From an uncultured Sphingomonadaceae bacterium (GTDB taxonomy: Bacteria > Pseudomonadota > Alphaproteobacteria > Sphingomonadales > Sphingomonadaceae), in the NCBI GenBank assembly GCA_947497315.1, contig CANMFX010000001.1, forward strand, positions 930,001-994,000: a stretch of 64,000 nucleotides of DNA. The letters run 5' to 3'. A program made the translations under genes and the position numbers. This document shows, piece after piece, positions 31,334 to 50,124 of the stretch (position 1 is the first letter of the stretch; each line of letters begins with the position of its first letter). A model generated the notes under the pieces. It was not told the origin of the DNA, searched no databases, and worked only from the letters and a program-made list of their open reading frames with translations.

Positions 31334-31443
31334 ACCTCAAGGATGGCACCAGACCGATGCGAAGCGGAGGCAAGGCCGACTGGCCGCCGCGCCTTATTGG
31401 CGCGTAGCCAAGGCGACGGATGTCGCCGCCCGGCGCTTGAGGT
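31334..31443. repeat. GC-rich modular inverted-repeat element, copy A (half unit)
   Basis: CCTCAAGG...GGCGACGGATGTCGCCGCCCGGCGCTTGAGG; shared with copies B-E. Confidence 0.9.
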
Positions 31444-31458
31444 CAAACAAATAAATCC

Positions 31459-32040
31459 TCAAACCAACCACTTAACCGCAACAAAGCCGCCAACGAACAA
31501 TATCCCGCCGAGTGTGGTCGCCAGCGCAAAATTCTTGTCGATCCATTCTTTCATCGGTGCGCCGAACTGGGCAAGCAGAACAGCAACAAGGAAGAAGCGA
31601 GCGGATCGCGCTATAATGGCTGCAAAGATCAGGATGTAGAGCGGCATGGAGGTGCTGCCCGCAGCTATAGTGATCACCTTGAACGGCAATGGCGTAAACC
31701 CGGCGAGCAGGACGACAATCCAGCCCTGCTCGTTAAAATTCTGGGCAAATAGGTCGAATTTGTCAGTCACGCCGTAAAATTCAAGGATCGCTATGCCGAC
31801 GGTTTCGAACAGGAAAAAGCCGATGGCATAGCCGAGCAAAGCCCCCAACACTGACGAAACGGTGCAGACAAAGGCGTACCAATAGGCGCGTTCCGGCTTG
31901 GCCAAACACATCGGCGCCAGCATGACATCGGGCGGAATGGGAAAGAAGCTCGACTCTGCAAAGCTGATCCCTGCAAGCCACTTGGTCGCTTGCGGATGAC
32001 CGGCCTTGTCGAGCATCCATTCGTAAAGGCGTTTGAGCAT
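31459..32040 (-). CDS. YqaA/DedA-family membrane protein
   Basis: ATKWLAGISFAESSFFPIPPDVMLAPMCLAKP...LLAGFTPLPFKVITIAAG. Confidence 0.88.
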   Translation of the reverse strand: MLKRLYEWMLDKAGHPQATKWLAGISFAESSFFPIPPDVMLAPMCLAKPERAYWYAFVCTVSSVLGALLGYAIGFFLFETVGIAILEFYGVTDKFDLFAQNFNEQGWIVVLLAGFTPLPFKVITIAAGSTSMPLYILIFAAIIARSARFFLVAVLLAQFGAPMKEWIDKNFALATTLGGILFVGGFVAVKWLV

Positions 32041-32050
32041 TATTTATAAG

Positions 32051-32280
32051 ACCTCAGGCGCCGGGCGGGCACATCCGTGCCCTTGGCTACGCGCCATAAG
32101 GCGCGGCGGCCGGTCGGCCTTGCCTCGCTGCGCTCGGACGATGCTCTCGAGGTTCGCGCCAGACAGATAAACTCTAGGTTGCCACCAATCCGACGCGAAG
32201 CGGAGGCAAGCGCGACTGCGCGCCCGAGCTTATGCGAGGAAAGCCAAGCGGGCGGATGCCCGCGCCCGGCGCTTGAGGGT
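32051..32280. repeat. GC-rich modular inverted-repeat element, copy B
   Basis: CCTCAGGCGCCGGGCGGGCACATCCGTGCCC ... GCGGGCGGATGCCCGCGCCCGGCGCTTGAGG. Confidence 0.92.
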
Positions 32281-32287
32281 AAAAAAA

Positions 32288-33859
32288 TCAATGCCCTGCT
32301 GCCCCCGACACTTCCTCTTGCAGTTCTTTCGGCGTTTCCCGGCCGTGGTCGGTGCCCGCTGTCCGGTTGCCCTTGGCGAGGGCAAAGACCACGCCGGACA
32401 AGGCAAGCAGGGCTACAATATTCGGCAGCGTCATAACGGCGTTCGAAATATCGCCCAGGCGCCAGACCAGTTGCAAGGGTGCGAAGGAACCGAAGAAGAT
32501 CACCACGCACCACAGGACGCGCCAGATAAAGTGCAGTTTTTTCTCGCCGCTCAGGCTCGCACCGGGGAGCAGGTCGTAAAGATAGGTAATCGCGCGCTCG
32601 CCATAATAGCTCCAGGTAAGCAGGGTCGTGAACACGAACAGGATCAGCGCGACCGAGACAATCAACGTGCCAATCGGAATACTGAACACTTCAAACGGGA
32701 AGGCTGCACCATAAGCGCCCGATGTCATGGCAAAACCATTGAGGTCAGATTGCCAGGCGTGTTCGACCACGGTTTTGACGCCATTGGCATCAGTCACGGT
32801 AAAGTCGCCAGCGACCGTCAGCATGACCAAGGCGGTCATGGTGCAGATCACGATGGTATCGATAAACGTGCCCATCATCGCAAAACGGCCCTGTGCTGCT
32901 GGATCATTGGTCTGTGCCACCGCGTGCGCAATCGGGGTGGAACCCTGACCTGCTTCGTTAGAAAACAGCCCGCGCGCCACACCGGCGCGAATGGCAATCA
33001 TGATCATCGCGCCAAGGAAACCACCGGCTGCGGCGTCATAGCCAAATGCGCCTGCAAAGATGCGGGAGAAGGTTTCCGGCAGATAAGGCAGGTTGATCAT
33101 CAAGGCGATAAAAGCCATCACAAGATAAGCCGCGGCCATCCACGGAACGATTGTTTCAGCGACTTTACCGATGGATTTGATGCCGCCGATAATGACTGCA
33201 AATACTGCGACCGCAGCAACCGCACCGCCAATCCATTCTTCGACCCCGAACAGCTCATTGGCGCTGTCGCCCAGACTATTGGCCTGAATACCGTTGCCGG
33301 TAACCAGCGCTGAAAACAGGGCGCCGATACAGAAAAGCACCGCCAGCCAGGTCCATTTCGGGCCGAGGCCAAGGGTAATATAAGTCATCGGTCCACCGCG
33401 ATAGGTGCCGTCTTCGGCCTGTTCGCGGAAACGGATGGCGAGCGACCCCTCGGCAAAGGCGAGCGCCATGCCGAACAGAGCGGTGATCCACATCCAGAAA
33501 ATCGCACCCGGACCGCCCAGCGTAATAGCCGTCGCAACGCCCGCGAGATTGCCGGTTCCCACTTGCCCGGAAAGGGCTGTCGAAAGGGCGGCGAAGGGAG
33601 AAATCTCACCCGCGCCCTTACTGTCGGATTTCTTGAACAGACCAGCAAGAGCAGGGAACAGGCGGCGCAGCGGATAGCCGCGCAAACCGATCATGAAATA
33701 GATGCCAGCGCCAAGCAAGATGATGACCATCGGCGGAATTGGCTGGCCAGCAATTGCTATAACCGCTTCGCCATTCCAGGTCCCGCCCCAGATAAAGTCC
33801 GATACATTGGTGACCGGCTGAATAGCCGCTTCAAACCCCGAAACTGGCGCTGTACTCAC
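32288..33859 (-). CDS. alanine/glycine:cation symporter (AGCS family)
   Basis: PFAALSTALSGQVGTGNLAGVATAITLGGPGAIFWMWITALFGMA; FSNEAGQGSTPIAHA. Confidence 0.95.
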   Translation of the reverse strand: MSTAPVSGFEAAIQPVTNVSDFIWGGTWNGEAVIAIAGQPIPPMVIILLGAGIYFMIGLRGYPLRRLFPALAGLFKKSDSKGAGEISPFAALSTALSGQVGTGNLAGVATAITLGGPGAIFWMWITALFGMALAFAEGSLAIRFREQAEDGTYRGGPMTYITLGLGPKWTWLAVLFCIGALFSALVTGNGIQANSLGDSANELFGVEEWIGGAVAAVAVFAVIIGGIKSIGKVAETIVPWMAAAYLVMAFIALMINLPYLPETFSRIFAGAFGYDAAAGGFLGAMIMIAIRAGVARGLFSNEAGQGSTPIAHAVAQTNDPAAQGRFAMMGTFIDTIVICTMTALVMLTVAGDFTVTDANGVKTVVEHAWQSDLNGFAMTSGAYGAAFPFEVFSIPIGTLIVSVALILFVFTTLLTWSYYGERAITYLYDLLPGASLSGEKKLHFIWRVLWCVVIFFGSFAPLQLVWRLGDISNAVMTLPNIVALLALSGVVFALAKGNRTAGTDHGRETPKELQEEVSGAAGH

Positions 33860-34054
33860 TCATATTCTCCCCGTATCGCGCATTTGGCGCTGAAAACTCC
33901 ACCCCGTTCGGGCTGTAATTTAATTACAATCGCAACAGGATTAGCAGCCACGCCGTTTTTGGCAAATGCTTTTGCCAATCGCGTGTGAAAGCCTATGATA
34001 AAGTTAGAAAATCAAAACCAATATCATGATTCTTTGACAGATGGAGCAGCGCAA

Positions 34055-35134
34055 ATGAGCGACCAGACAAGCAGCCTATGGGTTAAAAAGGCCGATCTTC
34101 CACAAAGCGAGTGGCACGCCGGACCTCCGCCGGAGCTTGGCGAAGGTCAGGTTTTGCTGGAGATCGAGAAATATGCGCTGACGGCCAACAACATCACTTA
34201 TGCTGCGGTGGGTGACGGCTTTGGCTATTGGAATTTCTTCCCGACCGGGGATGCGGACTGGGGTATTGTGCCGGTCTGGGGCTTTGCCAAAGTGGTGGCT
34301 TCGCAAAATGCCGATATCGCGATTGGCGAGCGGGTTTACGGCTATCTGCCAATGGCCAGCCACTTGGTTGTATCCCCGGGCAATGTTACCGAGGCGGGAT
34401 TTGTCGATCATGCCGAACATCGTCAAGGGCTGGCGATCATCTATAATCAATATCACCGTCTCGGCACCGATGAAGGGCAGATGGAAGAGGAACGCGCGCT
34501 CTATCAACCGCTGTTCACGACCAGCTTTTTGATTGAAGATATGATGCGCAAAGCCGCCTGGCATGGCGCGGAGGCGGTGCTGCTAACCAGTGCTTCGTCC
34601 AAAACGGCGCTGGGTCTGGCGGTGGTTGCCAAGAATCTCAGCCCCGATATCAAACGCATCGGTCTGACTTCAGCTGGCAACAAGGCGTTTGTGGAAGGAA
34701 CCGGGCTTTATGATGAGGTGCTGACCTATGATGATCTGTCCAGCGCGGATGCATCGCAGAATATCGTATCGGTCGACTTTGCCGGCAACAGTGCGCTGCT
34801 TACCGCGATCCACGCGCATTGGGATGTCAATCTGAAGTTCAGCTCCATGGTGGGGGCCACTCATTTTGAGGAACGCAAGGGTACAGGCGACCTGAAGGGC
34901 CCTGCGCCGGTGCTGTTTTTCGCGCCAACAGTGGCTGAAACGCTGATGAAAGAAGTCGGCCCAGCGACGTTCCGCGCGATGGTGGATGAACAATTTGCCG
35001 CTTTTGTTGCGAGTGTGGCGAACCACCTTTCGGTTGAGCATCTCTCTGGGCAGGATGCCTTGCGAAGCGCCTATCTCGAGATGCTGGCCAACAAGGTTGC
35101 ACCCAATCGCGGTTTGATCTGCGCGCTGGGCTGA
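34055..35134 (+). CDS. DUF2855 family protein
   Basis: LTANNITYAAVGDGFGYWNFFP...WGIVPVWGFAKV typical of DUF2855. Confidence 0.88.
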   Translation: MSDQTSSLWVKKADLPQSEWHAGPPPELGEGQVLLEIEKYALTANNITYAAVGDGFGYWNFFPTGDADWGIVPVWGFAKVVASQNADIAIGERVYGYLPMASHLVVSPGNVTEAGFVDHAEHRQGLAIIYNQYHRLGTDEGQMEEERALYQPLFTTSFLIEDMMRKAAWHGAEAVLLTSASSKTALGLAVVAKNLSPDIKRIGLTSAGNKAFVEGTGLYDEVLTYDDLSSADASQNIVSVDFAGNSALLTAIHAHWDVNLKFSSMVGATHFEERKGTGDLKGPAPVLFFAPTVAETLMKEVGPATFRAMVDEQFAAFVASVANHLSVEHLSGQDALRSAYLEMLANKVAPNRGLICALG

Positions 35135-35207
35135 GGTCGAAAAAGCGTTGCTTATCAACACAGAAGGGCAGATAACAGCCTGAACGGGGTCGCGCCTAGG
35201 GGACGAC

Positions 35208-36995
35208 ATGACTGAAACACCGGTTTCCGGCCCAAATTTGGCCCGCCATGCGCTATTTGATGGCGTGTCGGAGGCGGCGCTCGATGCACTGGAATCGGTG
35301 TCCACGCTGAAGCGCGTATCAGGCGGCGAAAATCTCGTCGTGCAGGGCGATGACGCCGACGCGCTCTATTTTGTCGAATCCGGGCGGTTCCGCGTGGTGG
35401 TCAACAAGGTTCATACTGTCGCACATATCGAGGCCGGAGAAGCGGTTGGCGAACTGGCCTTTTTCGCAGGCGGCAAGCGCACCGCCGATGTGATTGCGAC
35501 GCGCGATTCGGTTGTGCTGGAAGTATCGCGCAAGGCGTTTGACAATATCGCCCTTGATCATCCGGAACTGACCCAGGCAATGCTGAAACTGGTATCGGAG
35601 CGGCTTGTCGTCGCCACAGCGCGCACGGCATCGGTATCAACCGGAACACCGCGCGTAATTGCCTTGCTACCCGCCGGAACCAGTCAATTGCCTGACGGTT
35701 TACTGTCGCGGTTGGCCGCCGCCTTTGAAGCGGTGTTGAAAGACGACACTCCAATCATCGCAGTCGATCAAGGGACAAATGAAGCCTCTGACGGTGCGGC
35801 CTATCAGGCTTGGCTGGCGGAGCAGGAAGCCAAGGGTGCATATGTTCTCATTGACGGTAGCGGGTCGGAAGAATGGGGCGGTCAGGTCTGCCGCAATGCC
35901 GATGCGCTGGTCATGGTCGGCTGTCCGGGGCGGGCCGAACCCGAACCCAATGCTATGGAACAGACGGCAATGCGCTGGATTGCTCCGCCGCAGCGGTCCC
36001 TGTTGCTGGTGCGGGAGAAGGCCGACAAAACGATTACCAAGAGCGCGATCTGGATCGATCCGCGCGAACCGAAACTACACCATCATGTTGCTCTTGATAG
36101 CGATGCCGATTTCGCCAAGGTCGCTCGCTTCCTCACGGGTCGTGCGGTCGGCTTGGTACTTGCTGGCGGCGGCGCGCTGGGCTGCGCGCATCTGGGTGTC
36201 GTGCAAGCGTTGAGACAGGCCGATATCCCCATCGACTTTATCGGCGGGGCCAGCGCAGGGGCGGCGATGGGCGGCGCAATTGCGCGAGGGATGACGGTTG
36301 AAGAGACCCTCGACCAGATGGAAGCGATGTTCATCAAGGCCAAGGCGATGCGGCGGCTGACCCTGCCGCTCTATTCATTGCTTGATCCCACGGTGTTCGA
36401 TGCTGAGCTGCGTCAGCGATACGGGACCAAGGATATTGCCGATCAGCCGATAAATTTCTTTGGCGTTTCGACCAACCTGTCAACCAACGGCCTGCACGTC
36501 CATCGGCGCGGGCCGCTATGGGAATGTGTTCGCGCATCAGGATCGCTGCCAACGATATTGCCGCCCTTTATCGATAGCGATGGCAATATTCTGGTTGATG
36601 GCGGTGTGCTCGACAATGTGCCGGTCAAGGTCATGCACGGCCTGAAAACTGGCCCCAATATCGTGGTGTCACTGGGTGATCCGGACGAGATCTGGCGCAC
36701 CGATGTCGAATATGAAGATATCCGCGGGCGCTGGACATTGATGAAGGACGTGCTGCTGCGCAAAAAACGTGAGGCGGAGTTCCCCTCGATAGTCGAGATC
36801 ATGTCCCGGTCGATGGTGGTGGCAAGCCGGATGGCATCGAAAGAAATGCTCGGCGATCAGGACCTGCTGGTGAACCCCCCAATCATCCCCGACATGCAGA
36901 TTCTCGATTGGCATCTGGGGCGTGAGCTGGCCGAGATGGCAGAAGAATATATCACCAGCCAGGTGATCGAAAGCGCAGGCCTGAAACATTTGTAA
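35208..36995 (+). CDS. cyclic-nucleotide-binding/patatin-like phospholipase (NTE family)
   Basis: cNMP-binding domain VVQGDDADALYFVESGRFRV...GEAVGELAFFAGGKRTADV; patatin GLVLAGGGALGCAHLGVVQAL, GASAGA, DGGVLDNVPV. Confidence 0.93.
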   Translation: MTETPVSGPNLARHALFDGVSEAALDALESVSTLKRVSGGENLVVQGDDADALYFVESGRFRVVVNKVHTVAHIEAGEAVGELAFFAGGKRTADVIATRDSVVLEVSRKAFDNIALDHPELTQAMLKLVSERLVVATARTASVSTGTPRVIALLPAGTSQLPDGLLSRLAAAFEAVLKDDTPIIAVDQGTNEASDGAAYQAWLAEQEAKGAYVLIDGSGSEEWGGQVCRNADALVMVGCPGRAEPEPNAMEQTAMRWIAPPQRSLLLVREKADKTITKSAIWIDPREPKLHHHVALDSDADFAKVARFLTGRAVGLVLAGGGALGCAHLGVVQALRQADIPIDFIGGASAGAAMGGAIARGMTVEETLDQMEAMFIKAKAMRRLTLPLYSLLDPTVFDAELRQRYGTKDIADQPINFFGVSTNLSTNGLHVHRRGPLWECVRASGSLPTILPPFIDSDGNILVDGGVLDNVPVKVMHGLKTGPNIVVSLGDPDEIWRTDVEYEDIRGRWTLMKDVLLRKKREAEFPSIVEIMSRSMVVASRMASKEMLGDQDLLVNPPIIPDMQILDWHLGRELAEMAEEYITSQVIESAGLKHL

Positions 36996-36997
36996 TT

Positions 36998-37017
36998 GCT
37001 TGCCGCGCGCGGCAAGC
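36998..37017. repeat. 20-bp perfect palindrome GCTTGCCGCGCGCGGCAAGC
   Basis: Directly visible immediately after the patatin-like CDS stop. Confidence 0.9.
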
Positions 37018-37121
37018 TTGGTACGGGCAATCGAATACACGCATCAAGTACCTGCAAAAAAGGGGAGGATTTTGCGCGGCGTCTGCATTAAACAGCGATT
37101 CCCCCGATATCAGGATGACTT

Positions 37122-37778
37122 ATGACTCCCACCACCAATCCCCCACAAACTCTTGAGTTTCAATGTGAATGCGGCGCCATTCACGGTGTTGTGCGCGAAT
37201 CCTTTCCGCCAACCGGCCGCCGTCTGGTTTGCCATTGCAACGATTGTCAGGCCTTTGCCCATTATCTGGGCAGGGAAAAACAGATGTTGGACGACCATGC
37301 CGGGACGCATGTCTATCAGATGGATTCATCGAAATTCACCATCAGCAAAGGAAAGGACAAGCTCGCCTGTGTCACCGTTACCGGCGGACCGCTGCTGCGC
37401 TGGTATTGCGCGACCTGTAAAACACCGATTGCCAATACGCTCAGCTCCACGCGCTTTCCGTTTCTTTCGTTGATCCTGTCGGCCTTTGATCAGGGAAAAA
37501 CCGATGCGGTGCTGGGATCGGGCGTTGAGCATGTCGCGATACCATCTGGCGCAGGCGATCCCGGCAAGGTCAAGACCGCAGGAATGGCGGGCATGTTGTG
37601 GCAGCTGCTGGTCCGCGCGATCAAGGCGCGGTTCAACCCGGAGCTAAAAAAAACACCGCTGTTTGATGATGATACCGGCAAACCTCTCGCTGTGCCGATC
37701 AAGCTGGAGCGTTCAGAACGGCTGGCGATTGACGAAAAGGCCGATATTTACCGCGAGGTTTTGGCAGAGGCGCAGTAG
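37122..37778 (+). CDS. GFA-like / DUF6151 family protein
   Basis: LEFQCECGAIHGVV...RLVCHCNDCQAFAHYLGR...WYCATCKTPIANT zinc-binding Cys pattern. Confidence 0.8.
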   Translation: MTPTTNPPQTLEFQCECGAIHGVVRESFPPTGRRLVCHCNDCQAFAHYLGREKQMLDDHAGTHVYQMDSSKFTISKGKDKLACVTVTGGPLLRWYCATCKTPIANTLSSTRFPFLSLILSAFDQGKTDAVLGSGVEHVAIPSGAGDPGKVKTAGMAGMLWQLLVRAIKARFNPELKKTPLFDDDTGKPLAVPIKLERSERLAIDEKADIYREVLAEAQ

Positions 37779-37905
37779 GCGATTGTACCGGTTCACGGAG
37801 CCTAAGGACGGGAGCAAACCGTTTGTGGCTCTTTCGTCCCATTCAGATTAATCTAACCCAGCTTTCGTATCCGCTATGGGCGCAAAAGCGGACATAGGCA
37901 CCATC

Positions 37906-38472
37906 CTAATTCAGATAGAATATTCTAACACCAATCGGGCCCGGCCCCACAATGGCTTGATGGAATTTCAGATTGTCATAAGCGCTTTTCGCTAGTGATG
38001 TTCCATAGCCTTCCGCTGGATAGTCCCCTTGCATATCAAATTGCTGATTGCCATTCTCATCGTGGAAAACGGAAACTGCATATGCCTTGTCTGCTAGGTC
38101 AGGAAACTTTGTAGTTATCCGTCTTGTAGATGCGGGGAGTTCTGCAAAGCCGACCGCCTGCTGGTAGTCATAGCTTGCGTAAGCGGCGGCATTGTCGAAC
38201 ACCATAATGTAGATCTTTCCCTTCGAGTTGCGAACGCCGTTAATGGAAACAGTTAGGTATGGATTATTGGTCTGCTCGGCGGAAACCGAAGTCTCAAGCT
38301 TTGAATCTTGAGTATTTTCAGTTTTCGGCACCGGTTTCGACACAGCAATGCCATCAGCCACTGCTTTTCCATTTGTTTGACCGAGCTTGGCCAGGCTAGC
38401 TGTCCACGCGCCGCTCATCACAAGGGCGGCAGTTGTCAGCACAGCGGCAACTCTCTGTTTGTTGGTCGGCAT
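37906..38472 (-). CDS. DUF2141 domain-containing secreted protein
   Basis: LTVSINGVRNSKGKIYIMVFDNAAAYASYDYQQAV...AYAVSVFHDENGNQQFD. Confidence 0.88.
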   Translation of the reverse strand: MPTNKQRVAAVLTTAALVMSGAWTASLAKLGQTNGKAVADGIAVSKPVPKTENTQDSKLETSVSAEQTNNPYLTVSINGVRNSKGKIYIMVFDNAAAYASYDYQQAVGFAELPASTRRITTKFPDLADKAYAVSVFHDENGNQQFDMQGDYPAEGYGTSLAKSAYDNLKFHQAIVGPGPIGVRIFYLN

Positions 38473-38485
38473 AAATTATCCAGTG

Positions 38486-39394
38486 CTAGTTTTTAGATTT
38501 GGCGGACAGTTCGACCGGTATTGACGCTGGTTCAAACTCCGGAGGGCCAAAGAAATAGCCGGCTTTGTTGCGCCAGCCCCTGGCTGTAATCACGTTCTTT
38601 CCAACACGATATATTCCATGGAAGAAGGCGATTAAGGGGTTGTTGCTGTTGATTGGTTTGACCAGGCCATAGACAACAGGTGCCTTTTCTTCGGCGAATG
38701 TTCCGAAGATCCGGTCCCAGATGATGAAGATCCCGCCATAGTTGGTGTCGAGATATTCAGGATTTGAACCATGATGCACGCGGTGATGTGATGGCGTGTT
38801 CAAAATCAACTCAATCGGCCGGGGGAATTTTTTGATCGTCTCGGTATGCAGCGCTGTTTGATATAGCTGCACAAAAATCTCTGCGAAGGCGACCACAATG
38901 GGATTGAAGCCAAGCAAAACCATTATCACCGTACCGAACATCGGCCACAATCCGTCCATGGGACCAAAGCGATAAGCGACCGAAATGTTGAAATGCGGAG
39001 AACTATGATGGACGCTATGTGTTGCCCATGCAAAGTTGAATCGGTGCATGCAGCGATGTTCCCAATAATAGAGCAAGTCGGCGATCACGATACATATCAG
39101 AATGGTTGCCAGATTGGTTTCAATCTCGAACAGGGCGAATGAATAAGCGCCGTACACTGCAAAAACATAGAGCCCACCAAGGAGTAGAAAATTTACACCG
39201 ACAAACATGGCGAGCGTGATGTAGTTGGTGATTGTATCGCCAACCAGGTTCCAGCTGATCCGACCCCTCATGGCATAGCGAACAAATTCAAGCGCCAGAA
39301 ATATCAATGCGCCAATGAAGAACCAGTTGTTGAGCGTAGCATCCCAATATTCAACAAGGCTTGGACTGATATTGTCCAAAAGTGCATTCACCAT
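38486..39394 (-). CDS. sterol desaturase / fatty acid hydroxylase family protein
   Basis: His motifs YYWEHRCMHR, HSVHHSSPHF, HHRVHHGSN. Confidence 0.92.
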   Translation of the reverse strand: MVNALLDNISPSLVEYWDATLNNWFFIGALIFLALEFVRYAMRGRISWNLVGDTITNYITLAMFVGVNFLLLGGLYVFAVYGAYSFALFEIETNLATILICIVIADLLYYWEHRCMHRFNFAWATHSVHHSSPHFNISVAYRFGPMDGLWPMFGTVIMVLLGFNPIVVAFAEIFVQLYQTALHTETIKKFPRPIELILNTPSHHRVHHGSNPEYLDTNYGGIFIIWDRIFGTFAEEKAPVVYGLVKPINSNNPLIAFFHGIYRVGKNVITARGWRNKAGYFFGPPEFEPASIPVELSAKSKN

Positions 39395-39422
39395 ATTGCT
39401 CCAACCTGCGAATCGAGTTTAA

Positions 39423-39481
39423 ATTATCAGACTTGATAATCTTTAAATATGCTTCTATTATAAATTGTCAACGGTGATAAT
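39423..39481. promoter_or_regulatory. two operator-like palindromes in divergent sterol-desaturase/TetR promoter region
   Basis: ATTATCA-GACT-TGATAAT (39423-39440) and ATTGTCA-ACGG-TGATAAT (39464-39481), start-to-start 41 bp. Confidence 0.65.
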
Positions 39482-39494
39482 CTATGGAGTGTGC

Positions 39495-40082
39495 ATGCCG
39501 CGTCCTGATATGAAAGAACAGCGCAAGGCAGAAATTCTGGAAGCTTTTGAAAACTGCGTCGCTCGCTATGGCGTGGAAGGTGCGACGCTTGAGCGGATCG
39601 CTGATGAAGCGGGTTTGGCAAGAGCATTGATCCGTCACAATGTTGGCAATCGCGAAGATTTGCTGGCGGCTCTCATCAAGCGATTTTTTGATAGATCGAC
39701 TGAAAGTACGAAGCAAATGGTTGCTGCATTACCATCGCAAAACCCTTCCCGGACATTGGTCGATTGGCTGTTCGATCCCGCCTACTCCGATCCCAAGCAG
39801 GTTCTGATAACCGAAGCATTGATTGCATCAGCAGCCAATGACAAAGCGCTGGCAAAACGTCTGCGGAACTGGACCGATGGTTTTGTTGGGTCGATAGAAA
39901 ATGTGCTGAGTGCAGAGTTTCCGAAAGCATCAAAGGAAGCGACTGCCGCTGTGGGAGCGGGTATCACGGGGGTCTATTTTAACATTGACAGCTTTGCGCT
40001 TCTCGGCCCGATGAAAAAACTGCGCGCCGCATCGAAAGCTGCGGCCTTGCGTTTGATAGATAGCCTGGAGAACGAGAGATGA
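39495..40082 (+). CDS. TetR family transcriptional regulator
   Basis: KAEILEAFENCVARYGVEGATLERIADEAGLARALIRHNVGNREDLLAALI N-terminal HTH. Confidence 0.92.
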   Translation: MPRPDMKEQRKAEILEAFENCVARYGVEGATLERIADEAGLARALIRHNVGNREDLLAALIKRFFDRSTESTKQMVAALPSQNPSRTLVDWLFDPAYSDPKQVLITEALIASAANDKALAKRLRNWTDGFVGSIENVLSAEFPKASKEATAAVGAGITGVYFNIDSFALLGPMKKLRAASKAAALRLIDSLENER

Positions 40083-41218: not shown

Positions 41219-41303
41219 AAATGCAACCTCCGCTTTCGGGATAAAGCAACCGCTGGTTCCCCGACCTTCAAATTTTTTCTATAACCAAATAGGCACAAAA
41301 TAC

Positions 41304-41332
41304 TTGACATCGTCACGCTGTTTAGGTACAAA
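41304..41332 (+). promoter_or_regulatory. sigma70-type promoter
   Basis: TTGACA (41304-41309), 17-nt spacer, TACAAA (41327-41332). Confidence 0.7.
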
Positions 41333-41338
41333 TCAGGA

Positions 41339-41435
41339 ACATCGAGAAATTGTGATTCGGGCCGGGCGGCTCTGAACCGCCGGTTTGGCCTCACCACAGG
41401 GCTGGCCCGGGGTTTTCAGCGTGCCGGCCCTTTTT
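41339..41435 (+). ncRNA. candidate structured leader/sRNA upstream of GTA cluster
   Basis: Downstream of consensus promoter; hairpin GGCGGCTCTGAACCGCC and terminal hairpin GGGCTGGC...GCCGGCCC followed by T5; no credible ORF. Confidence 0.5.
41399..41435 (+). terminator. Rho-independent terminator-like hairpin before GTA g1
   Basis: GGGCTGGC (41399-41406) pairs with GCCGGCCC (41423-41430), TTTTT 41431-41435. Confidence 0.65.
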
Positions 41436-41475
41436 AATGCCCGCGATCCCACGTGATCCGGGCGTGAGGATAGAT

Positions 41476-42042
41476 ATGGCTGAAACACATGAAGACTCCC
41501 GGCCCGGTGACGTTGCTCCGGAGCCCGGAACTGATCTGCGCGCGGATCACAAGGCAACCCGGCAGCGTACCTTTCTGGAGCATCTGGCGATCACGTCGAG
41601 CATTAAGGAGTCCGCTGCGGTTGCCGGGATCGCCAACAGCACGCTCTATTTATGGAGAGACACCGACCCTGATTTTGCCGCTGCGTGGCTGAAGGCGCTG
41701 GCGGAGGGCTATGCGCTGCTGGAAATGGAAATGCTGGAGCGCGCCCGTCACGGGGTCGAGCGCAAGATCTATCACCACGGCAAGCATGTCGGAACGGTGC
41801 GCGATTATGACCACAAAACCGCGCTGCAACTGCTGCGCATGCACAAGGAAACCGTGGCTCTGGTCCGTGCCGCGCAGGCGGAGCAGACGGCGAAAGAGGA
41901 ACCGGCAGAGGATAGGCTGGAGGACAAGCTGAAAAAGATCAACGTGCGTTTGCGGGCCTTTCGGGCAGAGCAGCGGCGAAGAAAGGCAGCGGAACAAGAT
42001 CCTGATCACCGCGAAAGGAACGGTGCGGTGCATGGAAGGTGA
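41476..42042 (+). CDS. small terminase-like protein (GTA g1 position)
   Basis: HTH-like LEHLAITSSIKESAAVAGIANSTLYLWRDTDPDFAAAW; immediately upstream of TerL. Confidence 0.75.
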   Translation: MAETHEDSRPGDVAPEPGTDLRADHKATRQRTFLEHLAITSSIKESAAVAGIANSTLYLWRDTDPDFAAAWLKALAEGYALLEMEMLERARHGVERKIYHHGKHVGTVRDYDHKTALQLLRMHKETVALVRAAQAEQTAKEEPAEDRLEDKLKKINVRLRAFRAEQRRRKAAEQDPDHRERNGAVHGR

Positions 42043-43372
42043 TGTGAGAACGGCGGCCGAGATTGGCGCGCTGAAAGACGATGAGCTGGCGTTTGTTCTG
42101 GGCGAGATGGATCGCAAGACCCGCTTGCAATATGAAGCCAGCTGGCACCACTGGGCGCGAGACGAACAATTGGCACCCGCCGGTGACTGGACCACATGGT
42201 TGATCATGGCTGGGCGCGGTTTTGGCAAGACCCGGGCTGGGGCTGAATGGGTTCGCGAAATTGCCGAGGCCGATGGCAGCGCGCGCCTTGCTCTGGTCGG
42301 TGCGAATTTTGCCGAGACCCGGATGGTGATGGTGGAGGGAGAAAGCGGGCTTTTGTCGATCGCTCCGCCAAACAACCGCCCGCTGTGGGAGCCGTCGTTA
42401 AAGCGTCTGCGCTGGTCAAATGGCGCCGAGGCTTATCTCTATTCGGCCGCGGAACCAGAAGGTTTGCGTGGGCCCCAGCATAGTCATTCATGGTGCGACG
42501 AGATTGCCAAATGGGCGAACAATGCCGGACAGGCGCTGGCTACCTGGGACAATCTGAAAATGGGTTTGCGGCTGGGCCGCGCGCCCAAAATCGCGGCGAC
42601 GACAACGCCAAGGCCGGTGCCGCTGGTACGGGCGCTGGTCAAGGATAGTGGGGTCAAAGATAGCGGCACGGTGATTACGCGGGGCGGTACCGAAGACAAT
42701 GTTGCAAACCTGCCCGCGGCTTTCATTCAGGTGATGAAGGCCGACTATGACGGCACGCGGCTGGGGCGTCAGGAGTTGAACGGCGAGCTGATCGAGGAAC
42801 TGGAAGGCGCGCTCTGGACACGTGCGATGCTGGAGGAGTGCCGGGTCGTTTGCGACGAAGCCAGCCAAGTGGTTCGCATAGTCGTCGGTGTTGACCCGCC
42901 CGCCTCGCAAACCGGAGATGCCTGCGGGATCATTGTCGCTGCTTTGTGTGCGGACAATAAAGCCGTGATTTTCGCGGACAACAGCGTCGAGAAGCCCAGC
43001 CCTGAAACATGGGCAAGAGCGGTCGCGGATGCGGCCGGGATCTGGGGCGCCGACCGTGTGATTGCGGAGGCCAATCAGGGCGGAGCGATGGTGAAGTCGG
43101 TGCTGCAGGCGGCAGACATTTCGCTGCCGGTGCGGCTGGTCCACGCCTCCCGCGGCAAGGTGGCCCGGGCCGAACCGGTGGCGGCGCTTTATGAAGCAGG
43201 GCGGGTGCTCCATGCCGGTACGTTCCCGCGTCTGGAGGATGAGCTGTGCGGGCTGCTGATTGGCGGCAGTTATGAAGGGCCCGGGCGATCACCGGATCGC
43301 GCGGATGCGCTCGTCTATGCGCTGACGGAACTGATGTTGGGGCGGCGTAGAGAGCCAAGGGTACGGGTTTAG
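42032..43372 (+). CDS. large terminase / DNA-packaging protein (GTA g2)
   Basis: WLIMAGRGFGKTRAGAEWVREIAE (Walker A), RGPQHSHSWCDEIAKW (Walker B region). Confidence 0.95.
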   Translation: MEGDVRTAAEIGALKDDELAFVLGEMDRKTRLQYEASWHHWARDEQLAPAGDWTTWLIMAGRGFGKTRAGAEWVREIAEADGSARLALVGANFAETRMVMVEGESGLLSIAPPNNRPLWEPSLKRLRWSNGAEAYLYSAAEPEGLRGPQHSHSWCDEIAKWANNAGQALATWDNLKMGLRLGRAPKIAATTTPRPVPLVRALVKDSGVKDSGTVITRGGTEDNVANLPAAFIQVMKADYDGTRLGRQELNGELIEELEGALWTRAMLEECRVVCDEASQVVRIVVGVDPPASQTGDACGIIVAALCADNKAVIFADNSVEKPSPETWARAVADAAGIWGADRVIAEANQGGAMVKSVLQAADISLPVRLVHASRGKVARAEPVAALYEAGRVLHAGTFPRLEDELCGLLIGGSYEGPGRSPDRADALVYALTELMLGRRREPRVRV

Positions 43373-43435
43373 AGATTGGATGGAGTTTTGTGCTCCGCAC
43401 TCGATGCGGAGCGCGGGTGAGGATTCTTTATTAAT

Positions 43436-43674
43436 CCCTCAGGCGCCGGGCGCGGGCATCCGCCCGCTTGGCTTTCCTCGCATAAGCTCGGGCGCGCAGT
43501 CGCGCTTGCCTCGCTGCGCTCGGAAATATCCTCTGTAACTGGCACCGGACCGACGCGAAGCGGAGGCAAGGCCGACCGGCCGCCGCGCCTTGTGGCGCGA
43601 TAGCCAAGGCGACGGATGTCGCCGCCCGGCGCCTGAGGTCCAATAAAAAACTCTCGCGCCCGGCGCTTGAGGTC
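43436..43674. repeat. GC-rich modular inverted-repeat element, copy C (plus partial third unit)
   Basis: CCTCAGGCGCCGGGCGCGGGCATCCGCCCGCTTGGCT...GGCGACGGATGTCGCCGCCCGGCGCCTGAGG + CGCGCCCGGCGCTTGAGG. Confidence 0.93.
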
Positions 43675-43695
43675 AAATAAAAAAGGACAACAAAC

Positions 43696-44847
43696 ATGAA
43701 ATTCTGGGAAAACATCTTGCTCGCTTTAAAGAGCGGTGGGCAGCAAGCAAAACCGCCTTTGGGGCGCAGCTATATCGGCACCTATGGAGGTGCCGTTTTT
43801 TCGGGAGAAGCGCCCTTTTCTTATGAGGGTCGTGTGCGCGAAGCCTATGTCGACAATGCCATCGCGCAGCGCGCGGTGCGGATTGTTGCTGAAGGCGTTG
43901 GCGGTGCGCCGCTTGCGCCGATGGAGGAAAAGCTTGCGGCGCTCGTGAACGCAACCAGTGCGGGGCAGTCGCTCCTTGAAACCATCGCTGCGCATCTGTT
44001 GCTACATGGTAATGCATATGTGCAGATAATGTACGCGCCTGATGCCAAAGGTGTCGAGAGACCGGCTGAACTGTTTGCCCTGCGACCCGACCGGATAACG
44101 ATTGAGCCGGATGAAAAGGGCTGGCCGGTCGCTTATGTCTATCGCGCGGGCGAGCATCAGACCCGTTTTGCCGCACAAGATGAAATGGGACGGCCTGCAA
44201 TTATTCACATCAAGGCTTTTCATCCGACCGATGACCATTATGGCCTTGGCTGTCTCGGCGCTGCAGCCAAGGCAGTGGCGGTGCACAATGCTGCGGCTCA
44301 GTGGAACAGGGCTTTGCTCGATAATGCCGCGCGGCCATCAGGCGCGTTGGTCTTTGATCCCGGGCCGGATGGGTCGGCCCTGTCGTCGGACCAGTTTGAC
44401 CGGCTCAAGGCCGAGATGGATGCGAGCTTTGCCGGGGCTGGCAATGCTGGGCGGCCGATGCTGCTCGAAGGCGGCCTGAAATGGCAGAGCATGAGCATGA
44501 CCCCGGCAGACATGGATTTTGTGGCTTTGAAAGCAGCCGCGGCGAGAGAAATTGCACTGGCGTTCGGAGTGCCGCCGATGCTGCTCGGGCTGCCCGGGGA
44601 CAATAGCTATGCCAATTACCGCGAAGCCAATCGGGCATTGTGGCGGCTGACAATCCTGCCTCTGGCCGGGAAGATCTTGGACGGGCTGTCTGTCGCGCTG
44701 GGAGCCTGGTGGCCGGAGGCGAAGCTGGCGATCGACCGCGACCAGATACCCGCACTGTCGGAGGATCGGGAACGGTTGTGGCAACAGGTGAGCGAAGCGG
44801 ATTTTCTGTCGCCGGAAGAGAAGCGCAGCCGTCTTGGAATAGATTAG
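43696..44847 (+). CDS. phage portal protein, HK97 type (GTA g3)
   Basis: LLLHGNAYVQIMY...LRPDRI; MSMTPADMDFVALKAAAAREIALAFGVPPMLLGLPGDNSYANYREANRALWR. Confidence 0.95.
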   Translation: MKFWENILLALKSGGQQAKPPLGRSYIGTYGGAVFSGEAPFSYEGRVREAYVDNAIAQRAVRIVAEGVGGAPLAPMEEKLAALVNATSAGQSLLETIAAHLLLHGNAYVQIMYAPDAKGVERPAELFALRPDRITIEPDEKGWPVAYVYRAGEHQTRFAAQDEMGRPAIIHIKAFHPTDDHYGLGCLGAAAKAVAVHNAAAQWNRALLDNAARPSGALVFDPGPDGSALSSDQFDRLKAEMDASFAGAGNAGRPMLLEGGLKWQSMSMTPADMDFVALKAAAAREIALAFGVPPMLLGLPGDNSYANYREANRALWRLTILPLAGKILDGLSVALGAWWPEAKLAIDRDQIPALSEDRERLWQQVSEADFLSPEEKRSRLGID

Positions 44848-44870
44848 AGGTTGGAAGTTTATTTATTTTG

Positions 44871-45096
44871 CCTCAAGCGCCGGGCGCGGGCATCCGCCCG
44901 CTTGGCTACGCGCCAATAAGGCGCGACGGACGCCATTTGATTTTGGCGCCCTTGCCTCGCTACGCTCGGACGATGCTCTTGAAAGTTGCGCAGGAGGTCG
45001 CACTGATCCGACGCACCGCGTCGGCAAGCGCGCCCGCGCGCCCGAGCTTATGCGAGGTAAGCCAAGCGGGCGAATGCCCGCGCCCGGCGCCTGAGG
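44871..45096. repeat. GC-rich modular inverted-repeat element, copy D
   Basis: CCTCAAGCGCCGGGCGCGGGCATCCGCCCGCTTGGCT...AGCCAAGCGGGCGAATGCCCGCGCCCGGCGCCTGAGG. Confidence 0.93.
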
Positions 45097-45122
45097 GAAT
45101 AAAAAAAGGAGTCATCAAAAAA

Positions 45123-45431
45123 ATGCAAAACGAAGAAATGCTCGCTCGCCTGGTAGCGCAGGCGGAAGGCGATGGAGCTGATCTTGTGACGCTCCGCGCG
45201 ATAGTGGAGGAAGCGACCGATAGCGGTGCGGAGCGCGTACTCGACCGGCTGGGTCTTGCCGATCACAAGGCGCCTGACGATCTCGACGAGCTGCGCGAAC
45301 TGCTCCGTGCCTGGCGCGATGCCAAGGCGAGCGCCTGGAAAGCGGCGATCACCTGGGTTATTCGCGGTGCGCTGGCGCTGCTTCTGATCGGGATCGCCAT
45401 GCGCTTCGGGTTCGGGAATCTTGTCACGTGA
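45123..45431 (+). CDS. DUF6127-like small membrane protein in GTA cluster
   Basis: MQNEEMLARLVAQAEGDGADLVTLRAIVEEATDSGAERVLDRLGL...; one TM; start downstream of repeat D. Confidence 0.8.
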   Translation: MQNEEMLARLVAQAEGDGADLVTLRAIVEEATDSGAERVLDRLGLADHKAPDDLDELRELLRAWRDAKASAWKAAITWVIRGALALLLIGIAMRFGFGNLVT

Positions 45432-45853
45432 GCGCCATCCGCTTTGCCGGTTACGCCGCCATCTTCAATCGTATCGACCGAGGTGGCGATATCATTCGGC
45501 CGGGTGCTTTTGGCATGCTGGCCGAGGGGCTATCGCTGCCCCTGCTCTGGCAGCACCGACCGGAAAACCGCATCGGTAGTATAAGCTACGCTCGTGAAGA
45601 CCAGCGCGGCTTGCGCGTTATCGGAACCCTGTCGACCGCCAGTCGGGCCGGGCGAGAAGCGGCGATGATGCTGGCAGGAAATACCGTAAAAGGCCTGAGT
45701 TTTGGTTATCGTGTCAAGCAGGCGACGGGCCATGGGCCACGCATCATTGGTGATCTTGATGTCGCGGAAATATCGCTGGTCACCGCTCCGATGCAGCCAC
45801 TGGCACAGGTCCATTCATGGCAGAGCAGAACTAGCGGGGCGGTAGCGGTTTGA
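45428..45853 (+). CDS. HK97 family prohead protease (GTA g4)
   Basis: FAGYAAIFNRIDRGGDIIRPGAF...LPLLWQHRPENRIGSI...GLSFGYRVKQA...EISLVTAPMQPLAQV. Confidence 0.94.
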   Translation: MSAIRFAGYAAIFNRIDRGGDIIRPGAFGMLAEGLSLPLLWQHRPENRIGSISYAREDQRGLRVIGTLSTASRAGREAAMMLAGNTVKGLSFGYRVKQATGHGPRIIGDLDVAEISLVTAPMQPLAQVHSWQSRTSGAVAV

Positions 45854-46949
45854 CTCCGTCGGAAGCAGGCACGCCATTGGCCATATTGGTATCCATCGCA
45901 GCGATCACCGCGTCGCTGCACCCGAATGTCTTCAGCTCGGCGGCAATACGCGGATCGCTCTGGGTCGGTGAAATGACCTGCGGGAAGTAAAGTTCAACCG
46001 GCTTTTCCTGCTGGCACATATTGCGCCGCGCCAGGCTGTTGAAAGTTTTCAATTCGGCCAGCACGCCATCATGATCCTCGCGCCCGGCCAGAATATAGAT
46101 TTTCAGGATGCGGACCGGATAATAGACAAGATCCTGGTGACGGCTATGGCGCTCGGTCTTTTTTAGGAACAGGTCGATCACATCCAGCGCGCGATCTTCA
46201 TCCTTGGCGATGACCGCATCATAGGCAATCAGTTCGGCATGCTCGACATTGGATATCATGTCGATCGGCTGGCTGTCCGCCAAAGCGACCGCCGTGTTAA
46301 AATTTGCCAGCGCGTCATCGCGGCGGCCCAGTTCAAGGAGATATTCGCTTTTGTTTTTGTAGAGATAACCCCGGCGCGTGGCACCACCGCGCATCAGACT
46401 GCGCGCCTGCACCGCAATCAGGTCGTCATAGGCCGTCAGGGCAGCATCATGATCGCCAAATTGTTTAAGCAGCGCAATGAGCGAGCGATAGGAGCCTTGC
46501 GCGATCTCGTCCTGCATTGGCCAGCGGCCCCCGCCATGTTGTTTTGCCGACTTCATCGCCAGCGTCAGCGCGCGGTTTTTTAAACCTTCTGCATTGGGGG
46601 CGTTCCTCTTTTGCGCGGACATTGCCGCCTTGCTGGCCTGCTGCAAGCGGATCAGATCCTGATAGGCTTGCAGGACCGGCCAGCAGGTTTTTGCGACAAA
46701 GTCGAGAGACGGCTTATCCCGGTCACCGCAGGTGGACAGGTCGCCGCGTTTCTCTGGCGCTATGGTCATTTTGAGGATCGGGTCAATCTGTCGCGGCGGT
46801 GAAACAATCGGGATCGGCTTTTTCTCTGCGGCGACCGGCGTAGCGGTCCCAGATGCAGCGATCCCCGGTGCAGAAGTCGAAGATTGTGCTGCGAGCGGGA
46901 AGGCCATGAACAGGGCGGTCAAAGCGCCCAAGCCAGAAATCATATGCAT
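45831..46949 (-). CDS. secreted TPR-like protein of unknown function, antisense within GTA cluster
   Basis: Signal peptide MHMISGLGALTALFMAFPLAAQ; TPR-like helices (YKNKSEYLLELGRRDDALANFNTAVALA); 372 aa. Confidence 0.78.
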   Translation of the reverse strand: MHMISGLGALTALFMAFPLAAQSSTSAPGIAASGTATPVAAEKKPIPIVSPPRQIDPILKMTIAPEKRGDLSTCGDRDKPSLDFVAKTCWPVLQAYQDLIRLQQASKAAMSAQKRNAPNAEGLKNRALTLAMKSAKQHGGGRWPMQDEIAQGSYRSLIALLKQFGDHDAALTAYDDLIAVQARSLMRGGATRRGYLYKNKSEYLLELGRRDDALANFNTAVALADSQPIDMISNVEHAELIAYDAVIAKDEDRALDVIDLFLKKTERHSRHQDLVYYPVRILKIYILAGREDHDGVLAELKTFNSLARRNMCQQEKPVELYFPQVISPTQSDPRIAAELKTFGCSDAVIAAMDTNMANGVPASDGVKPLPPR

Positions 46950-47058
46950 GTACAGAGGGATAATAGGTCCCCTGCTGCTTGTCGATCAAAGAATTACCTC
47001 AACGATTTACGCCGTCCGACATCGGGCGATTTTTCATTACCCAAAAGAAAGGAACATC

Positions 47059-48249
47059 ATGGAAATTTCCAATACCCCTCTCGAAACGAAAGCCGACCCG
47101 TTAGAAGAGTCGTTTGACGTGGTCCTGCAGGCAGAAGAAACCGAACGACACGGTCAGGCGATTGCCGATCTGCGTACCGACGTTGATAGCTTGCAAAGCC
47201 AGATGAACGATATCTCGAAAGCCTCTGCGCGGCCTGTTTTGGCCGGGAATGAGCACGGCACGAAAGGTATGATGTCTTCTATCGCCGCACGCGATTTTAC
47301 GGCAAAATATCTCCGCCGCGGCGACCATGCGGGGGTTGAGCTGAAAAGCTTTTCCGGCGCATCCGGTCCCGAAGGCGGCTTTGCGGTGCCGCAGGAAATC
47401 GATGCCTTGATCGGACGGACGCTCAAGGACATCTCGCCGATCCGTTCGATTGCGACCGTCGTACAAACCGGCAGCGCGGGGTATCGCAAGCTCGTCACTG
47501 ACGGTGGCACGCCATCCGGCTGGGTCAGCGAAACTGCCGGAAGGCCGGAAACCGACACGCCCAATTTCAACGAGATCGCCCCGCCAACTGGAGAGCTATA
47601 TGCCAATCCCGCGGCGTCTCAGGCGATGCTGGATGACGCAGCATTTGATGTGGAGGCCTGGCTGGCGGATGAAATTTCCCGCGAATTTGCGCAGGCCGAG
47701 GGTGCGGCTTTTGTCGGCGGCTCTGGCGTCAATCAACCGCGCGGTTTTCTGAATGCACCGGTGACGGACGAGCCGGACGATGTTCGTGCTTTCGGGTCAC
47801 TGCAATATATTCCGTCTGGCGCGGCAGGTGCTTTTGCCGGGGCCGATGGGGAGGATGCGCTCGTTGATCTGGTTCATGCGCTGAAACCGGCCTATCGGCA
47901 GGGCGCAAGTTTTGTGATGAACAGCGCAACGCTGGCGCAGATCCGCAAGTTCAAGACCGCCGATGGCGCGTTTCTGTGGCAGGCGTCTTTGGCGTCGGGT
48001 CAGCCTGATATGTTGCTCGGTTATCCGGTGGTTGAGGCAGAGGACATGCCGGATGTGACGGCGGATAGCCTGTCGATCGCCTTCGGCAACTTCCGCGCGG
48101 GTTATCTGATTGCGGAGCGCAGTGCTACCAGCATCCTGCGTGATCCTTTTACCAACAAGCCGTTTGTCCATTTCTACGCGACCAAGCGCGTCGGTGGGCA
48201 GGTGATGAACAGTGAAGCAATCAAGTTGATGCAGTTTAGCGCGAGCTAG
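47059..48249 (+). CDS. phage major capsid protein, HK97 family (GTA g5)
   Basis: GGFAVPQEIDALIGRTLKDISPIRSIATVVQTGSAGYRKLV...YRQGASFVMNSATLAQIRKFKTADGAFLWQ. Confidence 0.96.
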   Translation: MEISNTPLETKADPLEESFDVVLQAEETERHGQAIADLRTDVDSLQSQMNDISKASARPVLAGNEHGTKGMMSSIAARDFTAKYLRRGDHAGVELKSFSGASGPEGGFAVPQEIDALIGRTLKDISPIRSIATVVQTGSAGYRKLVTDGGTPSGWVSETAGRPETDTPNFNEIAPPTGELYANPAASQAMLDDAAFDVEAWLADEISREFAQAEGAAFVGGSGVNQPRGFLNAPVTDEPDDVRAFGSLQYIPSGAAGAFAGADGEDALVDLVHALKPAYRQGASFVMNSATLAQIRKFKTADGAFLWQASLASGQPDMLLGYPVVEAEDMPDVTADSLSIAFGNFRAGYLIAERSATSILRDPFTNKPFVHFYATKRVGGQVMNSEAIKLMQFSAS

Positions 48250-48352
48250 CTTCTCCCCACCGTCGTGCCCTGGCGCGACGACACGCGCCCGTGCCGGCCA
48301 GTCCCCCCGGCACGGGCGCACCCTTAATCCTGTTAGAAAGGACACTACCCAA

Positions 48353-48898
48353 GTGAGTTATCCTCCTGATGACGTGCCTCCTGTGCCGATAGAATTAATC
48401 GAAGAGGTCAAGGGTTTTCTACGCCTCAATCATGACGAAGATGATGTGGCTATCGCCCAGCTGCTGGGCAGCGCCGCGCGCCTATGTGAAAATTTCATCG
48501 GCCAGGTGCTGATTGCGCGGTCGGTGCGTGACCGGATGCCGGTGCGCGCAAAATGGCAAAAACTGAAAAAACATCCTGTGCAGGCGATTACGCTGGTCGA
48601 AGCTGTCGCACCTGACGGCATGCTCACCCCTGTGCCATCAATGGACTATGCCATTGATATAGATAGTGATGGTATCGGTTGGGTCAAACTGCATCCGGTT
48701 ACCAGCATTACACGCATCGCGGTTACTTATGATGTTGGTCTGGCGGCAGACTGGACGAATGTGCCCACGACATTGCGGCAGGGCGTGGTGCGGCTTGCTG
48801 GTCACCTCTATTCACACCGTGATGGTGTGGATGTCGGTGGTCCGCCAAGTGCGGTGACAGCCCTTTGGCGGCCCCATCGCCGGATGAGGGTAGCATGA
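48353..48898 (+). CDS. head-tail connector protein (GTA g6)
   Basis: IEEVKGFLRLNHDEDDVAIAQLLGSAARLCENFIGQVLI...LRQGVVRLAGHLYSHRD. Confidence 0.9.
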   Translation: MSYPPDDVPPVPIELIEEVKGFLRLNHDEDDVAIAQLLGSAARLCENFIGQVLIARSVRDRMPVRAKWQKLKKHPVQAITLVEAVAPDGMLTPVPSMDYAIDIDSDGIGWVKLHPVTSITRIAVTYDVGLAADWTNVPTTLRQGVVRLAGHLYSHRDGVDVGGPPSAVTALWRPHRRMRVA

Positions 48899-49242
48899 GC
48901 GGCCCGGAAACCGGCTCGCTGGAATTTAGCGGCTTGCTGCGTGAGCTGATCCACATCGAACGCCAATCTTCGCAGCGTGACGCCGCTGGATCAGCAATGG
49001 ACCAAAACGAACCCGTTGGCGATTTTCGCGCGGCGGCAGCGCCACTGGGCACCGGTGACGCATCAGTGGCAGACAGCCGCTCCGCGTTGCCGCGCTGGCG
49101 CTTCACTCTGCGCCAAACCAATGCCGTTCGGCCCGGTGACATACTGACCTGGGCTGGTCGCGAGATGGTTGTCCAGTCAGTCGCCGCGGATCACCGATTC
49201 ATTCCGAGAACCTACCTGCAAGCAGAGGAGAAACGGGCGTGA
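48895..49242 (+). CDS. phage head closure/head-tail adaptor (GTA g7)
   Basis: Position after g6; ALPRWRFTLRQTNAVRPGDILTWAGREMVVQSVAADHR; 4-bp overlap with g6. Confidence 0.8.
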   Translation: MSGPETGSLEFSGLLRELIHIERQSSQRDAAGSAMDQNEPVGDFRAAAAPLGTGDASVADSRSALPRWRFTLRQTNAVRPGDILTWAGREMVVQSVAADHRFIPRTYLQAEEKRA

Positions 49243-49457
49243 ACAAATTGAAGCAAAAGGCCGAGAATATGGCTGATGCAGCAATCCAAAAGGCGAGGGA
49301 AGATGTCAGAACCGCGCTTGCCGAAGAATTGTCAGGCGATTTGACGATAGAAGAAACCGACGATGGCGTCGTTATTTCCGGCCCCGACCTGGGCGCGAAA
49401 CTTGTAACCGGCAGCAGTCTGCGCGACGTCGCTTTTCTGATGCGCGGTGTCCGGTGA
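49239..49457 (+). CDS. hypothetical GTA-cluster protein
   Basis: 72 aa, 4-bp overlap with preceding CDS and 1-bp overlap with the following CDS. Confidence 0.7.
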   Translation: MNKLKQKAENMADAAIQKAREDVRTALAEELSGDLTIEETDDGVVISGPDLGAKLVTGSSLRDVAFLMRGVR

Positions 49458-49852
49458 TGGGCGCTGTCGAAGCGGTGCAGCAAAGCCTGATCGCGGCGTT
49501 GAACGCGCATCTGCCATTGATGGACGAAATTGATGCTGTTTATGACGGTCCGCCGCCGCTTGCGCCTTTCCCCTATATTGCGCTCGCAACCGGTGCTGCG
49601 CTGGACTGGAGCTTTAAGGGCGGGGTCGGGCGTGAGCTTGGTCTGGCGCTGACCATCCATGATGATGGGCAGAGCGCGGTGCGGGTCCACAGGATAATGG
49701 CGCAGGTGGAAGAGGCGCTGAAAGCTGGTCTGGCGGATCCGGAAGGCTGGCAGATAGTGACATTCAATTTCCGCCGCACGCGGGTCCTGCGCAATGCAAT
49801 AAGTCCGTGGAGCGGCGTGATCGAATATCGCGCACGGGTTTTGAAGGTTTAG
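49457..49852 (+). CDS. DUF3168 tail completion protein (GTA g8)
   Basis: VQQSLIAALNAHLPLMDEIDAVYDGPPPLAPFPYIALATG...VEEALKAG. Confidence 0.9.
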   Translation: MGAVEAVQQSLIAALNAHLPLMDEIDAVYDGPPPLAPFPYIALATGAALDWSFKGGVGRELGLALTIHDDGQSAVRVHRIMAQVEEALKAGLADPEGWQIVTFNFRRTRVLRNAISPWSGVIEYRARVLKV

Positions 49853-49872
49853 AATTAGATAAGTTTTTTTGG

Positions 49873-50124
49873 ACCTCAAGCGCCGGGCGCGGGCATCCGC
49901 CCGCTTGGCTTTCCTCGCATAAGCTCGGGCGCGCAATCGCGCTTGCCGACGCGGTGCGTCGGATCAGCGCGACCTCCTGGACAACGCCCAAGAGCATCGT
50001 CCGAGCGTAGCAAGGCAAGGCCGACTGGCCGCCGCGCCTTATTGGCGCTTAGCCAAGGCGACGGATGTCGCCGCCCGGCGCCTGAGGGAATCAACAAAGA
50101 CTCCTCCCGCCCGGCGCTTGAGGT
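49873..50124. repeat. GC-rich modular inverted-repeat element, copy E (plus partial third unit)
   Basis: CCTCAAGCGCCGGGCGCGGGCATCCGCCCGCTTGGCT...GGCGACGGATGTCGCCGCCCGGCGCCTGAGG + CCCGCCCGGCGCTTGAGG. Confidence 0.93.

Follow-up and report, generated by a model that had tools for sequence, protein, structure and literature searches.

The window analysed here, a 64,000-nucleotide stretch of DNA from an uncultured Sphingomonadaceae bacterium, contains from 42 kb to at least 54 kb a head-tail cluster of terminase, portal, prohead protease, capsid, connector and tail genes, which we take to be a gene transfer agent cluster, and outside it a VTT/DedA gene on the minus strand (31459-32040). Five elements lie in the gaps between genes of these two regions. 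In a first-pass annotation they had been described as a five-copy inverted-repeat family, intergenic and with no transposase close by. All five are indeed intergenic, and no transposase was found near any of them; four are complete elements, whereas the fifth consists of one arm and a stump. This truncated copy, W1 (31335-31442, minus strand), retains one arm of type I, which occupies 31356-31442 and reads inward on the minus strand, and a 7-nt stump of its left end, CCTCAAG; the loss probably came about by deletion between this heptamer in the end and its second occurrence in the centre. W1 and W2 flank the VTT/DedA gene. W2 (32052-32278) is a complete heterodimer with a type I left arm (32052-32138) and a type II right arm (32192-32278). 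W3 (43437-43638), in the gap between the terminase and portal genes, and W5 (49874-50087), 5' of the tail tube gene, each have a type II left arm and a type I right arm, while W4 (44871-45096), 3' of the portal gene, has a type I left arm with a long D hairpin and a type II right arm.

W2 to W5 are bounded by exact or one-mismatch copies of the end motif CCTCAAGCGCCGGGCG, and the complete elements measure 202-227 bp. With up to three mismatches allowed, the window has 12 copies of this motif where 1.5 are expected, and none of 100 dinucleotide shuffles of the window reached 12. The longer coordinates given earlier are explained by an additional outward copy of the end carried by W3 and W5, at 43657-43672 (minus strand), where it forms a tandem of the terminal block of about 34 bp, and at 50108-50123 (minus strand). 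Two other repeats were seen in the window: a head-to-head pair at 16661-16739 starting CGTCATCCC, which has the look of a CGTC-type REP dimer and belongs to a different family, and an array of CCACCT-like 12-bp repeats at 58837-58923. In several genomes of the genus, elements cluster near the gene transfer agent and VTT/DedA region (G000, 930-994 kb; G032, 1.79-1.82 Mb; G006, 3.06-3.12 Mb; G014 C2, 0.09-0.18 Mb).

The unit of the family is the arm, made up of a T-rich tract, CCTCARGCGCCGGGCG, hairpin B with its ATCC loop, CTTGGCT, hairpins C and D and then hairpin E; read inward, the order is 16-mer, B, CTTGGCT, C, D, TTGC[CG] and E. The hairpin variants noted previously around GGAT/ATCC, and the second hairpin, are present in the sequence as described. 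Stem variants of hairpin B include CGGGC, GCGAC, GGCGC and GGCAC, among others, and the left arms of W3 (43452-43467, plus strand) and W5 (49889-49904, plus strand) both carry this covarying core hairpin as GCGGGC-ATCC-GCCCGC. Hairpins C and D come in linked types, type I being CGCGCC-ATAA-GGCGCG with GGCCGGTCGGCC and type II CCTCGC-ATAA-GCTCGG with GCGCGGTCGCGC; a longer D hairpin is occasional. Within the genus two unlike arms stand head to head, one of type I and one of type II, and outside it single arms and direct tandem arrays are common. Several species have an alternative left arm module that begins GTCTCGCGGCAGTTCGCTGCGCGAACGCCTCCGACGGGGCGGGC and is joined at hairpin D (L215, L242, L244, L248, L250). 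Some genomes of other genera extend the unit by additional hairpins on either end (L329-L334, L359-L368), with short inverted terminal matches, CAGGGTGATCGCAT in one genome and ATACC...GGTAT in two others; in one genome with an extended unit the inverted terminal match is 9-14 bp long.

The pairing of unlike arms is strict. Among 78 well-formed elements, none had C/D segments more than 85% identical between its two arms; random pairing predicts 30% homotypic elements, with a minimum of 17% in 1000 permutations, a test that takes related elements as independent. Hairpin E was likewise never homotypic (8% expected), while hairpin B showed no significant difference. Only two elements were found with a type I hairpin C in both arms, and in these an insert of about 250 bp lies between the arms. 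When folded, synthetic homotypic elements reached -225 kcal/mol with about 72 long-range pairs, compared with -140 kcal/mol for real elements. Neighbouring arms in direct orientation are often near-identical, which holds for 0 of 7 inverted inward pairs outside the genus, although this comparison is partly weakened, as tandem duplication itself makes direct neighbours identical. A possible reason for the difference between arms is that a pair of identical ones would form a perfect palindrome, with over 70 bp on each side, and would be deleted. The preference of REP dimers for unlike partners has been said to have no obvious explanation, with SbcCD suggested as a cause (Di Nocera 2013, PMC3733652). 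We rejected clearance by SbcCD as the cause here: SbcD scored above the cut-off in only one of 33 genus genomes and was undetected in the other 32, so that the usual palindrome-removing enzyme cannot be invoked and, if the palindrome explanation is right, another process must act.

The family extends well beyond the window. The source genome (3.42 Mb in 9 contigs) holds about 12 elements, and termini occur in 32 of 33 genus genomes, with up to 38 per genome, these copy numbers coming from pattern and model searches. The covariance-model search proposed in the first-pass annotation was carried out with the 42-nt core and found matches in 28 of the 289 genomes of Alphaproteobacteria sampled, spread over 22 of 219 genera, many of the 28 with at least 22 matches, the E-values of this model being rough; a phylum-level sample gave one borderline match outside the class. 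An exact scan of public genomes with the 16-mer returned loci in genera of Sphingomonadales, of Rhodospirillales type and of Acetobacteraceae. About half of these matches show TTGGC, which was not in the query, at the expected place, and most of these also show hairpin B; the invariance of the 16-mer is partly built in, as the sequences were collected with it. A search of phages gave no match, and in a search of plasmids those of Sphingobium, Azospirillum, Niveispirillum and Nitratireductor matched in part. In Streptomyces, repeats reading CCTCAA(A/G)CGCCGG(A/G)CGGGCT (L064, L085, L099, L124) resemble the 16-mer, through kinship or convergence. As for a match to a named family, an Rfam scan of the window returned tRNA only and no structured-RNA family for the elements, and the end sequences were absent from searchable paper texts, a search of open-access literature that could miss an earlier description.

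Among repeats of Alphaproteobacteria, RIME and related rhizobial elements are intergenic mosaic palindromic repeats of about 100-200 bp. The arm repeat resembles RIME in size and mosaic palindromic layout and differs in taxonomic range, as compared by description rather than by sequence; RIME-type rhizobial elements are mentioned in PMC2573895. With the RAYT-associated GTAG REPs and BIMEs of Gammaproteobacteria (PMC2817692) it shares dispersed, intergenic, GC-rich imperfect hairpins, head-to-head pairs, a mosaic structure and a place behind gene ends. It has, however, neither a GT(A/G)G head, its conserved outer block being CCTCARGCGCCGGGCG, nor a RAYT gene, and at about 90-110 nt with three or more hairpins it is larger than the GTAG REP of 20-40 nt and one hairpin. 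The shuffling of half-units in the manner of BIMEs, reported earlier for the window, was confirmed among copies: paired hairpin units stand opposed and their modules are exchangeable. The CGTC REPs of Alphaproteobacteria (PMC3733652) come with the same class range, dimers and lack of a dedicated transposase, with the same preference for co-directional and convergent gaps, and, in several families, with a preference for heterodimers. Variants of their tag include TGTC and CCTC (PMC3733652); the arm has no CGTC as such and begins with CCTC, which may be a variant of the tag. Their stems are 8-9 bp long with AT pairs first and a CCA tail (PMC3733652), whereas hairpin B begins with G-C and is followed by CTTGGCT, and they are reported missing from Acetobacteraceae (PMC3733652), where the arm repeat occurs (Roseomonas, Roseococcus). 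Like MITEs, the arm repeat is short and non-coding, with inverted ends and near-identical copies in unrelated flanks, but no parent transposon was found for it, no clean target-site duplication was seen, and conservation of its outer ends applies to each arm separately, not to the two as a paired terminus. It is a previously unnamed, class-wide REP/BIME-like family with neither a GTAG nor a standard CGTC tag and without the transposase of the described REP families.

Its position relative to genes is also that of the REP class, being intergenic with avoidance of divergent promoters. By gene calls from our own codon-score script, 48 elements from four genus genomes fell into 37 co-directional and 11 convergent gaps and no divergent one, against 24 divergent pairs among 191 background pairs. 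Elsewhere, single arms occupied 31 co-directional, 20 convergent and 6 divergent gaps, and their orientation showed no strand bias (14 along and 17 against transcription). We rejected an intrinsic terminator, since the outward side flanking the stems is A-rich on the transcribed strand; a terminator scan flagged hairpin B in two copies, only by virtue of the following CTTGGCTTTC (12 sites, 7.7 expected). Beside the VTT/DedA gene, the outer end of W2 (32052-32057) presents CTGAGG on the minus strand, 11 nt 5' of the ATG, as a putative Shine-Dalgarno sequence. An element outer end was recognised directly 5' of this start codon in 27 of 30 genus species, and GAGG stands 7-11 nt before the ATG in all 27 loci with a recognised end while neighbouring positions vary. 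The end of the element has therefore likely been adopted as the Shine-Dalgarno of the VTT/DedA gene.

The stems stay paired as they change. Across the class, hairpin B was paired in 98% of cells among 47 arms, and 77 cells were changed on both sides, compared with 27 in shuffles; among the copies of one genome there were 44 such cells against 16, counts uncorrected for the relatedness of arms. Its covariation score across Alphaproteobacteria was 0.68 compared with 0.16 in shuffles, in agreement with the first-pass claim that the inner hairpin covaries. In 12 copies from one genome hairpins B and C were 100% paired, 8 of 13 pairs being altered on both sides, and perfect stems of at least 5 were present for C in 28 and for D in 24 of the 47 arms (3.6 and 5.7 in shuffles). 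The further step taken from this covariation, to selection on folded RNA or single-stranded DNA, was not supported. Functional RNA copies transcribed in 3' UTRs, with hairpins that stabilise or process mRNA and pairing kept by RNA selection, would fit covarying stems and a location behind stop codons away from divergent gaps, yet this now seems unlikely. G-U is commonly held to be an intermediate when stems evolve under RNA selection, and the 1617 stem pairs that we counted were 97-98% Watson-Crick, with 6 G-T and 14 A-C (about 1% together). At position 6 of the outer end, an arm has A or G regardless of which the other arm has, the single arms show no preferred orientation, the stem is followed by the A-rich side, which is not the layout of a terminator, and sister species fill the same gap with other hairpin repeats or with nothing. 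In the genus, moreover, hairpin B is frequently exchanged as a block, and copies otherwise almost identical differ in the whole of it. With stems this nearly pure in Watson-Crick pairs, no strand bias and outer ends free of covariation, we dispute RNA selection; the strand data and the independence of position 6 fit a DNA-level element better than a strand-specific RNA. Nor is there support for a selected structure in which the outer ends hold a cruciform closed, as position 6 does not covary. Template switching, reported to yield compensation at several bases with no need of selection (PMC8794818), is an adequate alternative to RNA selection for the covariation of the stems. Many fully compensated stems in one genome with almost no wobble intermediates are what is expected of this process, which would keep stems perfect as replication, switching template inside a hairpin, copies one side onto the other.

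How the elements turn over can be followed at orthologous gaps, with one genome per species compared. The VTT/DedA gap holds an element or clear remnant in about 26 of 30 genus species, and the arm beside the gene, typed by eye, belongs to type I in about 12 species and to type II in about 14, close relatives included. Two pairs of orthologous sites align best with one of them inverted (score about 0.78-0.79). In other species the portal-gene gaps contain an element, unrelated hairpin repeats, an interior-deleted remnant or nothing. The unrelated hairpin repeats of the gene transfer agent gaps around portal (L234-L255) differ from species to species, for example TGTGCTCCGCACTTGATGCGGAGC pairs and CTCTCCCTTGAGGGAGAG. 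Where a genome is well sampled, its copies often resemble one another more than they do their orthologs, and paralogs reach up to 97% identity with flanks unrelated from just outside the ends; no clean target-site duplication was seen at the empty orthologous sites compared. A DNA-level unit that copies or recombines is what the sequence comparisons point to, given copies confined to one species, orthologous sites that are empty, and copies that are almost identical despite unrelated flanks. Copying would proceed either through single-stranded hairpins that transpose in trans or through recombination and gene conversion among the copies, and gene conversion alone could explain the homogenised copies. 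As to a mover, a REP-like layout and gene context and a bulged hairpin core are what an ordinary REP family mobilised by the RAYT (Y1) transposase of these genomes would display. The search for a RAYT/Y1 gene that the first-pass annotation had suggested found no Y1_Tnp in the source genome, and most of the genus genomes rich in copies also lack one, as do 17 of 20 other carrier genomes; there is no GTAG tag, and no gene recurs beside the core across genera. A Y1/RAYT mover encoded in these genomes is thereby largely refuted for the source, the genus and the 20 other carriers searched, leaving such a family very improbable, and the mover is presumably another. Clustering of the genes beside the core (59 loci) yielded no recurring neighbour across genera except a common short-chain dehydrogenase family, and an autonomous parent element is accordingly unsupported.

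Taken together, we consider it probable that the arm repeat is a short, non-coding, non-autonomous repeat of REP/BIME-like kind, whose spread or copying within a genome takes place as a unit of DNA and which is tolerated in the gaps behind gene ends. Any role for the host would be secondary and local, as for the one gene whose ribosome-binding site seems to derive from an element end. The 16-nt sequence and ATCC...CTTGGCT are kept across several orders while the stems change freely, as might be expected of a protein-binding DNA site like the gyrase, IHF and Pol I sites of E. coli BIMEs, at which a conserved alphaproteobacterial protein would read the 16-mer and CTTGGCT in chromosome organisation or regulation. 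We regard such a site as improbable, given the patchy distribution (28 of 289 genomes), positions that differ between sister species, a 16-mer whose constancy owes something to its use in collecting sequences, and a protein that is a candidate only, with none known. A bolder version of the copied DNA unit, which we put forward tentatively, has the arm as the recognition unit of a conserved alphaproteobacterial trans-acting factor with no relation to Y1 transposases. Such a factor would bind the 16-mer and the ATCC hairpin and copy or move arms as single-stranded hairpins, with stems renewed by template switching and inverted dimers surviving only where the arms are unlike.

For the wider study of such repeats, the arm repeat offers a clean case in which to ask whether covariation in short perfect hairpins proves selection. 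It also offers one in which to ask why REP dimers so often join unlike partners, the rule being strict here even though SbcD goes undetected in nearly all of the genus genomes. If the reading with a trans-acting factor is true, the family would represent a class of non-autonomous mobile element with a mover of its own.
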